Shown here piece by piece: positions 34,394-37,433 of a DNA stretch of 37,433 bases. Numbering within the stretch: position 1 is the stretch's first letter; the number at the start of each line of letters is the position of its first letter. The stretch spans positions 1-37,433 of the forward strand of contig CADEDA010000025.1 in the NCBI GenBank assembly GCA_902825965.1. Direction: 5' to 3'. Source of the stretch: an uncultured Gemmatimonadota bacterium (GTDB taxonomy: Bacteria > Gemmatimonadota > Gemmatimonadetes > Gemmatimonadales > Gemmatimonadaceae). A program made the translations under genes and the position numbers. A model generated the notes under the pieces. That model saw only the letters and a program-made list of their open reading frames with translations, was not told where the DNA came from and searched no databases.

Positions 34394-34990
34394 TCAGGCG
34401 GCCTCGAGGTCAGCGACCAGCGCCACGAGCTCCTGCATGATGGGACCCGCGAAGCCGAGCGCGTGCAGGCGATCGCGCACGCTGCGGAACCACTGCAGCG
34501 TACCGTCGCGCCCGCCGCTGAAGCGACCCCAGACCGTGTCGGCGTCGATGGTGCGCCGCAGGTCGGCCAGGATGCTGCCGGCGTTGTGCACCTTGTCCGC
34601 CGCGCAGACCCACCAGGCGGATTCCGACGCGGCACCGAGACGCTCGAGGTAGTCGGCGCGCGCTTCGTCGCGCGAGAACTCCATGCCCTCGTCGTCCACG
34701 CGGCGCTTGGTGACGGCGAGGACCGTGTCGAGGACCTCGGCACCGAACTTGGCGGCGATCCGCTCCTCGAGCATCTCGCGCGTCCACCCTTCGCGCACAC
34801 AGTCCTCGATGACGTCGTGCAGGATGCCGGCGATGACGGTCTCATCGTCGCGGCCGTAGCGCGTGAGGATGAGGGCGACGTTCGCCGGATGGGTGAGGTA
34901 GGGCAGACGCGTGCCCTTGCGCACCTGGCGATCGTGGTGCTTCGCCGCGAAGGCGAATGCGTGATTGATGCGGTCCGAGTAGCCAGTCAT
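34394..34990 (-). CDS. HD-domain hydrolase, MESH1/SpoT-hydrolase-like
   Basis: The 198-residue protein matches the hydrolase half of RelA/SpoT proteins without a synthetase half, the pattern of small alarmone hydrolases such as MESH1 (about 180 residues). Motifs are AAKHHDRQVRKGTRLPYLTHP (first His), ILHDVIEDC (HD pair and ED) and AADKVHNAGS (Asp). It probably removes the 3'-pyrophosphate of (p)ppGpp or a related nucleotide; the substrate is inferred. TAAGTT about 12 bases before the ATG may be a -10. It is convergent with ispG. Confidence 0.85.
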   Translation of the reverse strand: MTGYSDRINHAFAFAAKHHDRQVRKGTRLPYLTHPANVALILTRYGRDDETVIAGILHDVIEDCVREGWTREMLEERIAAKFGAEVLDTVLAVTKRRVDDEGMEFSRDEARADYLERLGAASESAWWVCAADKVHNAGSILADLRRTIDADTVWGRFSGGRDGTLQWFRSVRDRLHALGFAGPIMQELVALVADLEAA

Positions 34991-35022: not shown

Positions 35023-35466
35023 TCAGCGCAGGACGGCGCTGGTGAGCTGCAGGTCCAGCACCAGGAGCGCGCTGCCCTGGACGAGGACGCCGATCCCGGC
35101 GCCGACGAGGCCCATGCGCCTGCCGAGCAGCCATCCACAGAGCGCGAGTGTGACGCCGACCGCCATGTAGCCTGCGTCGAGTCCCGCGTTGAACCAGAGG
35201 AACCGGTCGAGTGCCACCGCCTGCGCGTGGTCCTTGAGTGCGAGGCCGCGCTGCGCGACGATCACGATCGCCAGGTCGATCGTCCCCCACGCCATGCTCT
35301 GGATCGCGAAGTGCTGCAGGAGGTCGGACTGCACGCGGCGCCAGTGGAGAAGGGCGAGGACGGCGGTACCGGCGAGCACACTGAGTGCGGCCCAGAGGGC
35401 GAGTTTGTAGATATGGAGGCGCTCCGCAGCGAGCAGCGCGTCGGACCATTGCCCTTCAAATGGCAT
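35023..35466 (-). CDS. Four-TM membrane protein, DUF6992-like
   Basis: The 147-residue protein has four hydrophobic segments (about 20-41, 58-70, 96-113 and 117-136). WFNAGLDAGYMAVGVTL is the likely family signature. No catalytic or transport motif is seen. The start codon is directly preceded by two 9-base direct repeats that fill the 21-base gap to the upstream gene. It likely shares a transcript with that gene, unless the repeats mark a promoter. Confidence 0.7.
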   Translation of the reverse strand: MPFEGQWSDALLAAERLHIYKLALWAALSVLAGTAVLALLHWRRVQSDLLQHFAIQSMAWGTIDLAIVIVAQRGLALKDHAQAVALDRFLWFNAGLDAGYMAVGVTLALCGWLLGRRMGLVGAGIGVLVQGSALLVLDLQLTSAVLR

Positions 35467-35487: not shown

Positions 35488-37269
35488 CTATGACGGCTCT
35501 TTGATAGCGCGGCGAACGGCCTCGAACGAACCGCCTGGCGTGCGGCCCTTTCGCTTCGACAGCAGGGCCGCGAGCTCGGCCCGGGTCGGAAGCTCGGGAC
35601 GCGGAGCCTCCCACAAGACCACGCCCTGCACCCGTCGGTCCGCTGCCCGAAGCGCCGTCGCCTCGGCCATCAGGTCCCCCACGGGCGTCTCACCCACCAC
35701 GGCGGTGTGGATCACCGGACTCGAGGGCAGCAGCGAGACCGCATCAGCGAGCTTCGTCAGCGGACACACGACGATGGTGAGTTCGTACGCCGAGCGGAAC
35801 TTCACGAACTCGTCGCGCAGCGACTGCTGGGCGGACTCCGGCACGGCATCGTCGCGCTCGGTGCCGGCGGGCATCAATGTGATGGGCAATCCGTCGCTCG
35901 AGCCCACAGGCCGCGCGACCTCCTTCCAGCGGAACGCACCGGCGAGCGCGTCCGAGAAGCCCGGCTCGGGACGCTCGCGGAACGTTCGCGCCAGCGCGAT
36001 CTGCGAGGGATCGAGGTCGATCGCCAATGTCGTGCGATGGTCGGCGGCCGCCGCGATCGCGAGGCGGGCGCCCGCCGCGGCGACGATCACCGGGTCACTG
36101 CCGGTCACGATCGCGGTGCGCGCGCGTGTGCCGGTGGCCGTGAGGCCGAGGTACAGCATCCGGAACGGGTCCACTCCGCTGGGGCGGAATCGTGCGGGCC
36201 CATCGAGGAGCGCGTCGCGTACGGTCGCCAGCACGGTCGAGCCGGACACCGCCGCCGCCTCGGCGGCATGCGCCACGGTGGGCTGCTTGAACTCGCGGCT
36301 CAGGGCGGCACCGAGTCGCACGGCGAGGCCGCCGATCAGGAGCACGAACAGCGCGATGGCCGGCGAAGCCGCCGCCCAGTTGGATCGCGCCGGGGTCACG
36401 GTCTCGTTCGCGAGGCCGAGGATGAGGACGCGCAGGGAATCGTGCTGTCGCTGGATCTGTGCCAGTGTGTCGCGCGCGGCGACGAGGACCGCGAAGGCAC
36501 GAGCGGTATCGGGCTTCGCCGCGGCGACCTTCGCGCGCTCCGGGACCGGCGGTGCCGGGGACGGCAGCACGGCAGCCGCACTCGGGGTCACGGCCACCGC
36601 TCCCTGGGCCACGAGCTCCACGCGCCGGTTCTCGGCGATGGCAAGGATCGTGTAGCCGGTACGCGAGAGACGGCGCACGATCTCGTTCATCTGCACCTCG
36701 CGCTGCGGACCGCTCTCCAGCGCCTCCTGCCGCGCGACGAGCGCGGTGATGGTGTCCGCGAGCGCGCGCATGCGAGGCCCGGCGCTGACGGCCGGGTGCG
36801 CAGCCACCGCGAGCCACGCGGGTGGATTGCGGAGCTGACGCGCCTCGGCGATGAGGCGCTCGAACTCCGCGACGGACGGATCGAGGGCGCGCGGCGCGAC
36901 GGCAACGGGCGCAGGGCGGGGCGGGGTCCGAGGGGCGGGCTCGACGCTCACGCCACGGGCCACGACGAGGGCCGATTCCGCAGCGGCCACGGCGAACGAG
37001 GCGGTGCGCAAGCGCCCCGCGCTGCGCAGCGTGTCTGCCGCCTGCCGTTGCAACCGCGCGCGCGCGGGCGCGGCGGGGTCGTTGGTGGCGAGTGGCACGA
37101 GCAGCGCGAGCAGTGCGAGCCCGCCGACGATCGGCACCCAGAGGCGGATGAATCGGAGGGACCGGCGGAGCGCGAGCGAACTGCGTGCGAAGAACCACTC
37201 CGAACCCGTCAGCAGGTGCGGAGGTGTGGTCGGCGTGGGGATCGGCGGCGTTGGGCGAGCGCTGGCCAT
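35488..37269 (-). CDS. Two-TM protein with a BY-kinase-like domain lacking the P-loop Lys
   Basis: 593 residues from the ATG at 37269 (GTG 37335 and ATG 37311 are alternatives). A Pro-rich start is followed by TM1 (43-61), a long helical periplasmic part (about 65-295) and TM2 (303-321). The C-terminal cytoplasmic domain (about 365-590) has a MinD/BY-kinase-like order. This is the Wzz/polysaccharide-copolymerase layout. The P-loop position reads TGSDPVIVAAAGARLA (389-404), with no GK[ST]. A Walker A'-like TTLAIDLD (413-420) remains. No Tyr cluster is seen at the C terminus. It may be a pseudokinase scaffold for exopolysaccharide export. It is leftward and divergent from the window's last start codon. 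Confidence 0.7.
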   Translation of the reverse strand: MASARPTPPIPTPTTPPHLLTGSEWFFARSSLALRRSLRFIRLWVPIVGGLALLALLVPLATNDPAAPARARLQRQAADTLRSAGRLRTASFAVAAAESALVVARGVSVEPAPRTPPRPAPVAVAPRALDPSVAEFERLIAEARQLRNPPAWLAVAAHPAVSAGPRMRALADTITALVARQEALESGPQREVQMNEIVRRLSRTGYTILAIAENRRVELVAQGAVAVTPSAAAVLPSPAPPVPERAKVAAAKPDTARAFAVLVAARDTLAQIQRQHDSLRVLILGLANETVTPARSNWAAASPAIALFVLLIGGLAVRLGAALSREFKQPTVAHAAEAAAVSGSTVLATVRDALLDGPARFRPSGVDPFRMLYLGLTATGTRARTAIVTGSDPVIVAAAGARLAIAAAADHRTTLAIDLDPSQIALARTFRERPEPGFSDALAGAFRWKEVARPVGSSDGLPITLMPAGTERDDAVPESAQQSLRDEFVKFRSAYELTIVVCPLTKLADAVSLLPSSPVIHTAVVGETPVGDLMAEATALRAADRRVQGVVLWEAPRPELPTRAELAALLSKRKGRTPGGSFEAVRRAIKEPS

Positions 37270-37367
37270 TGCCGGACGGGAATCACTGTGAGGGGGTCCG
37301 GACCGGTGCATTCCATCGGTTGGCCCGGGTTGCACCTTCTGACTCGTGCGACTAGCCTTCGGTCACG

Positions 37368-37433
37368 ATGCGTTCTTTGCGCCACGCCCACACCCATCAT
37401 CACCACGGCCCGACGGGTCGGGGATGGGTGGCG
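37368..37433 (+). CDS. Possible divergent gene, 3' truncated by the window
   Basis: An ATG at 37368 opens a frame of 22 codons to the window edge, with a His-rich start (HAHTHHHHGP). TAGCCT about ten bases upstream could be a -10. It may be the first gene of an operon running to the right, but the piece is too short to identify, so confidence is low. Confidence 0.3.
   Translation, partial: MRSLRHAHTHHHHGPTGRGWVA

Follow-up and report, generated by a model that had tools for sequence, protein, structure and literature searches.

The open reading frame at positions 35488 to 37269 of the reverse strand encodes a 593-residue membrane protein, P0001, whose C-terminal domain, as judged from a structural model, has the fold of a bacterial tyrosine kinase (BY-kinase), the enzyme type that drives capsule export. 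It lies in the window, a stretch of 37,433 nucleotides from an uncultured Gemmatimonadota bacterium that is the entire contig C25 of its genome. From the alignments described below, the P0001 family consists of pseudokinases, and the loss of the catalytic motifs is a trait of the family as a whole. The loss of the ATP site, the tyrosine tail, and the usual outer domain suggests a structural scaffold rather than an enzyme. The frame begins with an ATG at 37269 and its stop codon ends at 35488, exactly as an earlier sequence-only reading had placed it; an upstream GTG at 37335 is an alternative start that would add 22 residues. The frame has a strong third-position GC signal and is no chance product, as 108 of 148 genomes of the family Gemmatimonadaceae match it. 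The features of the gene and of its downstream neighbors are as follows.

35488..37269, reverse strand: putative PCP-2a-derived BY pseudokinase of 593 residues (P0001), from the ORF, family matches, and profile and model matches to BY-kinases
37087..37143, reverse strand: first membrane helix, residues 43-61, preceded by RRSLRFIR (positive inside), from a hydropathy peak and a model helix at 22-61
36370..37086, reverse strand: periplasmic helical part, residues 62-300, with no Wzz/GNVR match, from a profile-profile match to the Wzc-type PCP-2a helical stalk and a model with no strand there
36301..36363, reverse strand: second membrane helix, about residues 303-323, from a hydropathy peak at 305-323 and a model helix at 297-328
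35590..36294, reverse strand: pseudokinase domain, residues 326-560, from the family profile, the model, and fold matches
36079..36105, reverse strand: lost Walker A place, residues 389-397, TGSDPVIVA, from the alignment with 83 relatives and 22 BY-kinases and from the model
36010..36027, reverse strand: Walker A'-like LAIDLD, residues 415-420, with the Asp kept and the following Arg lost, from the alignment
35761..35778, reverse strand: lost Walker B place, residues 498-503, TIVVCP, from the alignment
35491..35589, reverse strand: basic C-terminal tail lacking Tyr, LSKRKGRTPGGSFEAVRRAI, conserved within the genus of the window, from the alignment and Tyr counts
35023..35466, reverse strand: DUF6992 protein, 21 bases downstream of P0001 and in the same direction (Pfam PF22503, E 1.4e-19)
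34394..34990, reverse strand: HD-domain protein, same direction as P0001; its relative L039_7 matches Pfam HD_4 (E 5.6e-12)

Fold, domain order, and the former catalytic site

The layout of P0001, with two predicted membrane helices (hydropathy peaks at residues 43-61 and 305-323), a periplasmic part between them, and a cytoplasmic domain of BY-kinase fold, agrees with the two-helix arrangement proposed from the sequence. P0001 alone matches no Pfam or NCBIfam family at E ≤ 10, and neither database names the family, in line with the earlier suggestion that it might be new. A profile built from 29 members matches the solved structures of CapAB (E 3.5e-11) and Wzc (E 4.4e-10) over the kinase domain. 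The single-sequence prediction of P0001 was unusable (pLDDT 44.6), and an alignment-based model from 31 sequences (mean pLDDT 81.9) was used instead. This model aligns with CapAB at Z 25.1 (rmsd 2.2 Å, 217 residues) and with Wzc at Z 23.8, versus 14.5 for Soj and about 14 for MinD/ParA-type proteins. Because the CapAB and Wzc scores stand far above those of MinD/ParA, the domain belongs with the BY-kinases and is more than MinD-like; the comparison with CapB/Wzc that the sequence-only reading had proposed as a check gave a related fold rather than an unrelated one.

At E ≤ 0.1, the NCBIfam model of the XrtA-associated autokinase matches 17 of 29 members and the eps_fam model 16 of 29. In ten members inspected singly, all matches lie below the curated cut-offs and are located in the C-terminal domain with two exceptions, a weak TIGR03007 match at the second membrane helix only and one LysB match in the stalk. 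A link to XrtA, taken from the commonest NCBIfam name, was dropped, with an exosortase present in 3 of 30 genomes. Family frames are 530-615 residues long in 28 of 30 sequences versus 768-968 residues in 20 of 22 BY-kinases.

The motifs were counted in an alignment of 83 distinct family members and 22 BY-kinases from Gemmatimonadota. The Walker A lysine occurs in 0/83 family members (V, A, T, I, S, or L stands in its place, with one gap) versus 22/22 BY-kinases, and a deletion removes the preceding glycine in all 83, while all 22 BY-kinases retain it. In P0001 the P-loop place reads TGSDPVIVA, without lysine and one residue shorter than in the BY-kinases, as the sequence-only reading had recognized when it described the Walker A site as lost. 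In the model, just two loop residues separate strand 385-390 from helix 393-409, which by this prediction leaves no room for a phosphate loop. Three family members carry GK[ST], but outside the P-loop place. The Walker B aspartate is likewise found in 0/83 family members (82 replaced, one gap) versus 22/22 BY-kinases. Of the Walker A' motif, the first Asp is kept in 75/83 members, the second in 61/83, and the Arg in 13/83. An arginine at the place of P0001 Arg412 is present in 78/83 members; this place is not conserved in the BY-kinases.

The tyrosine cluster is also gone, again as first read from the sequence. The last 35 residues hold no Tyr in 78/83 family members, P0001 among them, and one Tyr in 5/83, versus 3-10 in the BY-kinases, such that at least two occur in 0/83 and 22/22, respectively. 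The C-terminal LSKRKGRTPGGSF (window 35491-35589, reverse strand; relatives L008-L015) is found in every aligned member of the window's genus except L010 (8 of 9) and in 0 of 21 other aligned sequences; it is a candidate genus-specific binding motif or membrane-touching tail. The interface helix is partly kept, reading [DE]-x2-R-x2-Y in the family versus E-x2-R-x2-R, with D or E in 76/83 members, R in 60/83, and Y at the third place in 58/83, where 19/22 BY-kinases have R. A tree computed without the motif columns (82 + 22 sequences, 268 columns) splits the family fully from the BY-kinases with support 1.0, and 80/83 family members versus 0/22 BY-kinases match the family profile from its start. 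Since the split is complete even without the motif columns, the motifs were not lost repeatedly from different local kinases in this sample.

The periplasmic part and comparison with known systems

In a profile-profile comparison, the periplasmic part of the family matched that of 21 BY-kinases at 95.0% (E 4e-8, 184 columns). The controls fell far lower: 0.1% with either profile reversed, at most 0.7% in 30 block shuffles, and at most 0.2% with nine unrelated neighbor families; none of these nine is known to form a coiled coil, a feature for which the reversed and shuffled profiles are the controls. At the level of profiles, then, the family's periplasmic part and the helical stalk of the Wzc-type PCP-2a are related. 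The label "Wzz-like" is not supported in the strict sense, however: neither Wzz (PF02706) nor GNVR (PF13807) matched at E ≤ 0.1 in any of the 29 members scanned, and the P0001 model has no predicted strand between the membrane helices. The simplest reading is a PCP-2a in which the stalk was kept and the base domain lost. The base domain is the part through which polysaccharide co-polymerases (PCPs) are thought to act, and as it is not detected in the family, PCP-like work is doubtful.

Wzc and other PCP-2a BY-kinases, including a copy encoded in the window's own genome, share with P0001 the order membrane helix, stalk, membrane helix, and BY-kinase fold; the P0001 family differs in being shorter and in having no Walker A/B, no tyrosine tail, and no detected Wzz or GNVR. 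BY pseudokinases as such are already in print (PMC12004946, PMC4182512). EcpK of Myxococcus xanthus and HfsB of Caulobacter are described as BY pseudokinases acting as scaffolds for a separate PCP, EcpK/EpsV thus being a precedent for scaffolding, and single-chain variants in Sinorhizobium, Brucella, Mesorhizobium, and Vibrio are cited there from an earlier analysis (PMC12004946). EcpK and HfsB resemble P0001 in combining a BY-kinase fold with the absence of catalytic residues and tyrosine tail, and EcpK, too, ends in a basic helix (PMC12004946). They are stand-alone partners of a kinase-less polysaccharide PCP (PMC12004946), whereas P0001 carries two membrane helices and a stalk of its own.

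PssP2 of Rhizobium leguminosarum is fused and motif-less, with a periplasmic part much shorter than that of PssP, and the Walker A, A', and B motifs and the tyrosine cluster are missing (PMC4182512). It shares with P0001 the single chain, the two membrane helices, and the cytoplasmic domain of BY-kinase fold, but it keeps Wzz (PF02706) and GNVR (PF13807) alongside an AAA match and acts in exopolysaccharide chain length (PMC4182512). In the P0001 family, by contrast, Wzz and GNVR were not detected, and the gene stands outside any recognizable export locus. A literature search found no paper on a Gemmatimonas exopolysaccharide tyrosine kinase or a Gemmatimonadaceae tyrosine autokinase. The kind is therefore known; what has not been described, as far as the literature searched goes, is a form such as that of Gemmatimonadaceae, which has no detectable base domain and lies outside any recognizable export locus.

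Distribution, selection, and genomic setting

Matches to P0001 occur in 29 of the 35 genera of Gemmatimonadaceae, a tally that includes a few BY-kinase-only matches. In 5 of the 108 matching genomes (G001, G022, G058, G078, G086), the sole listed match is a frame of more than 800 residues, the size of a BY-kinase; a further search found the short pseudokinase form in G022 and G086. In a profile search of 298 genomes of the phylum, among the matches listed, those starting in the N-terminal part all lie in family f1, and those from other families begin no earlier than profile position 181, mostly in BY-kinase-like frames of 700-980 residues. A scan of the species collection with P0001 alone gave no match. 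The same scan with the alignment gave 31 loci labelled Gemmatimonadota, Gemmatimonadaceae, Gemmatimonas, or similar, except for one "unidentified bacterium" and one Omnitrophota; it depends on one short peptide pattern, which relatives elsewhere could escape. The Omnitrophota record (L106, PLNN01000017.1) has a matched fragment identical to the Gemmatimonadetes record L105 and is probably a mis-binned contig. Within the searches made here, the P0001 family thus appears confined to Gemmatimonadaceae.

The dN/dS of the pseudokinase domain was 0.02-0.05 in four of five g5 pairs (rough values for the two of the five in which dS exceeds 1 and is saturated), and the fifth showed no non-synonymous change; it was 0.16-0.30 in four pairs from the window's genus and 0.24 in one g20 pair. 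In each of the ten pairs it was lower in the pseudokinase domain than in the N-terminal part. With values of at most 0.3 in all ten, the domain is therefore not decaying there. An in-frame TGA counted in four g20 genomes proved to be the terminal stop only. A strongly diverged copy, L189 (G036:C132, 1-969 of the reversed locus), occupies the same place before the HD gene and has lost Walker A' too.

Gene neighborhoods were read in 40 regions, the window, and contig C15. The final 55 bases of the window are identical to the first 55 of C15, so C15 very probably continues the window. Two regions (L056, L071) contain a BY-kinase but lack the family gene, and the counts refer to the remaining 38 loci, where contig ends cut some regions and the simple gene picker may have missed small genes: his genes are present in 29, ispG in 33, and either in 37 (L065 has neither), with an HD gene in 30, a cupredoxin in 29, DUF6992 in 10, and a GAF gene in 10. 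The usual order has the his genes on one strand and, on the opposite strand, cupredoxin, pseudokinase, DUF6992 and/or GAF, and HD; ispG points towards this group. Cupredoxin, DUF6992, GAF, HD, M16, and hisD were named by Pfam; hisG, ispG, the remaining his genes, and the arginine genes carry presumed identities, read from the sequences without Pfam. The cupredoxin gene (a plastocyanin-like lipoprotein, seen in L037-L076) usually directly precedes the pseudokinase gene and is absent from the P0001 locus of the window's genome and from G116.

To the right of the window, where the sequence-only reading had advised looking for exopolysaccharide functions, hisG starts at C15:191. Before it, a short ORF, MRSLRHAHTHHHHGPTGRGWVAHAGAK (window 37368-37433, forward strand, continuing on C15; L004:1-190), is followed by a GC-rich inverted repeat with a T run; it is probably a his-operon leader peptide, judging from its sequence, and Rfam gave no match above the gathering score in this region. 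Similar His-rich peptides (at least 5 His in 10 residues, with HGPTGRG or a similar string often coming next) occur at 16 of 40 neighborhood loci, counted whatever their distance to hisG; the one in L039 looks unrelated. No PCP was seen among the P0001-family neighborhoods read, and for 52 neighboring frames outside the named clusters, no polysaccharide family was found among the first 25 of the 49 Pfam families matched; these 25 include DNA ligase, peptidases, protein kinase, and TerC. From these gene contents, the family gene does not appear to lie in a recognizable polysaccharide export locus.

The gene is dispensable, since it can be absent while its neighbors at the locus are kept: hisG and HD stand with no copy between them in G139, G134, G133, G115, G138, G045, and G001 (with a cupredoxin in all but G001), and cupredoxin precedes HD with no copy between in G120, G114, G132, and G110. 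In three g24 genomes, less than 1 kb of other, unassigned sequence lies between cupredoxin and DUF6992 or GAF.

Export genes were surveyed in 30 chosen genomes, 20 carriers and 10 without the gene. Poly_export was found in 16/20 versus 5/10 (Fisher 0.12), Wzz in 14/20 versus 3/10 (Fisher 0.06), and Wzy_C in 19/20 versus 7/10 (Fisher 0.10), values to be read with the difference in genome size between the groups and the non-independence of relatives in mind. These counts lean towards a link with the pseudokinase gene, a loose trend that may be real. BY-kinases were found in 10/20 carriers (counting a PCP-kinase cut at a contig end in G126 and one weak 842-residue match in G023) and in 0/10 genomes without the gene; these two counts are not comparable, because the ten non-carriers were drawn from genomes with no hit to a profile that detects BY-kinases as well, and a Fisher p of 0.013 based on 9/20 is void for the same reason. 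Diverged copies like that of G036 can escape the selecting profile; the locus was read and held no copy in seven of the ten non-carriers (G110, G134, G139, G120, G132, G114, G115), the other three being G049, G137, and G035. Ten of the 20 carriers have eps_fam matches only in frames of 255-502 residues (ParA/MinD sizes) or in the pseudokinase itself. In carriers G006, G060, and G079, drafts that are 93-96% complete, no Poly_export (Wza), Wzz, or BY-kinase was detected and Wzy_C is present; in G122, neither Wzz, Wzy_C, nor BY-kinase was detected. Conversely, G001, G045, and G138 have BY-kinases and no pseudokinase copy between hisG and HD. Carriers without a detected BY-kinase and BY-kinase genomes without the pseudokinase at the locus speak against mutual need. 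Of the earlier proposal of a pseudokinase regulator of export, the pseudokinase is borne out by fold and lost motifs, but the role in export, though conceivable, is not, given the his/ispG setting of 37 of 38 loci and the three carriers without detected Wza, Wzz, or BY-kinase.

Possible roles of the P0001 family

The explanation that we favor, and consider somewhat probable, is that P0001 is a membrane-anchored, phosphorylation-independent BY pseudokinase scaffold that descended from, or shares an ancestor with, the Wzc-type PCP-2a. Such a protein would be unable to bind ATP or to transfer phosphate in the manner of a BY-kinase, may self-assemble into a ring or another form through its partly kept interface helix, and would link the cytoplasm and the periplasm. 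By analogy with the proposals for EcpK and HfsB, it could be a constitutive scaffold that holds at least one envelope partner without a phosphorylation cycle. By descent, an envelope-polysaccharide enzyme would be the first guess for this partner; the Wza/Wzz/BY-kinase set could fill that place in every carrier only if the genes not detected in some of them lie in gaps of the draft assemblies. Against a scaffold, no partner stands out among the named neighbors (his, cupredoxin, DUF6992, GAF, HD, M16, ispG), the gene is dispensable, the third interface residue is mostly Y instead of R, and the Walker A' aspartate, kept in most of the aligned members, would be unexplained by pure scaffolding. 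More tentatively, the protein may be a Wzc-type co-polymerase minus its kinase chemistry and outer base domain that much of Gemmatimonadaceae has kept for a task other than capsule export, the frame of an export machine turned into a membrane ring or post with a new partner.

The same aspartate, together with the family-specific arginine at the Arg412 place, is what an alternative reading accounts for, in which the dead domain uses its former active site to hold a different small ligand and relays a signal, from the envelope or from a nucleotide, to the other side of the membrane. The HD protein found at 30 of 38 loci would fit such a sensor, but HD and the other neighbors stay where the gene is gone, and we regard this reading as unlikely. 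Slightly less likely still is that P0001 modulates the genuine Wzc-type kinase with which it shares a cell, its dead subunits joining the kinase ring and slowing its phosphorylation cycle. The folds are the same, and contig C5 of the window's genome encodes a genuine BY-kinase with Walker A, GNVR, and a Tyr-rich end, near Poly_export, Wzz, and Wzy_C matches. Half of the surveyed carriers, however, have no eps_fam match of BY-kinase size (with the G126 copy cut and the G023 match weak among the others), and three genomes have BY-kinases and no copy between hisG and HD.

A decaying Wzc relic without function would agree with the absence of the gene from several genomes and with the far more divergent G036 copy, in which even Walker A' is lost, but it is very improbable in view of the near-uniform frame length, dN/dS far below 1, and the spread of matches over 29 genera. 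A still active kinase with an unusual nucleotide site is hardly credible, as the kept Walker A' aspartate stands against the joint loss of Walker A Lys and Gly, Walker B Asp, and tyrosine tail and a model without space for the phosphate loop.

The P0001 family is a natural case, family-wide, of the BY-kinase fold held under selection without its chemistry, and naming the family by homology to Wzc would be wrong. Genuine kinases are present in some carriers and none were detected in others, and some relatives are without only this gene at the locus; the role of the BY-kinase ring apart from phosphorylation is therefore directly testable in these organisms.
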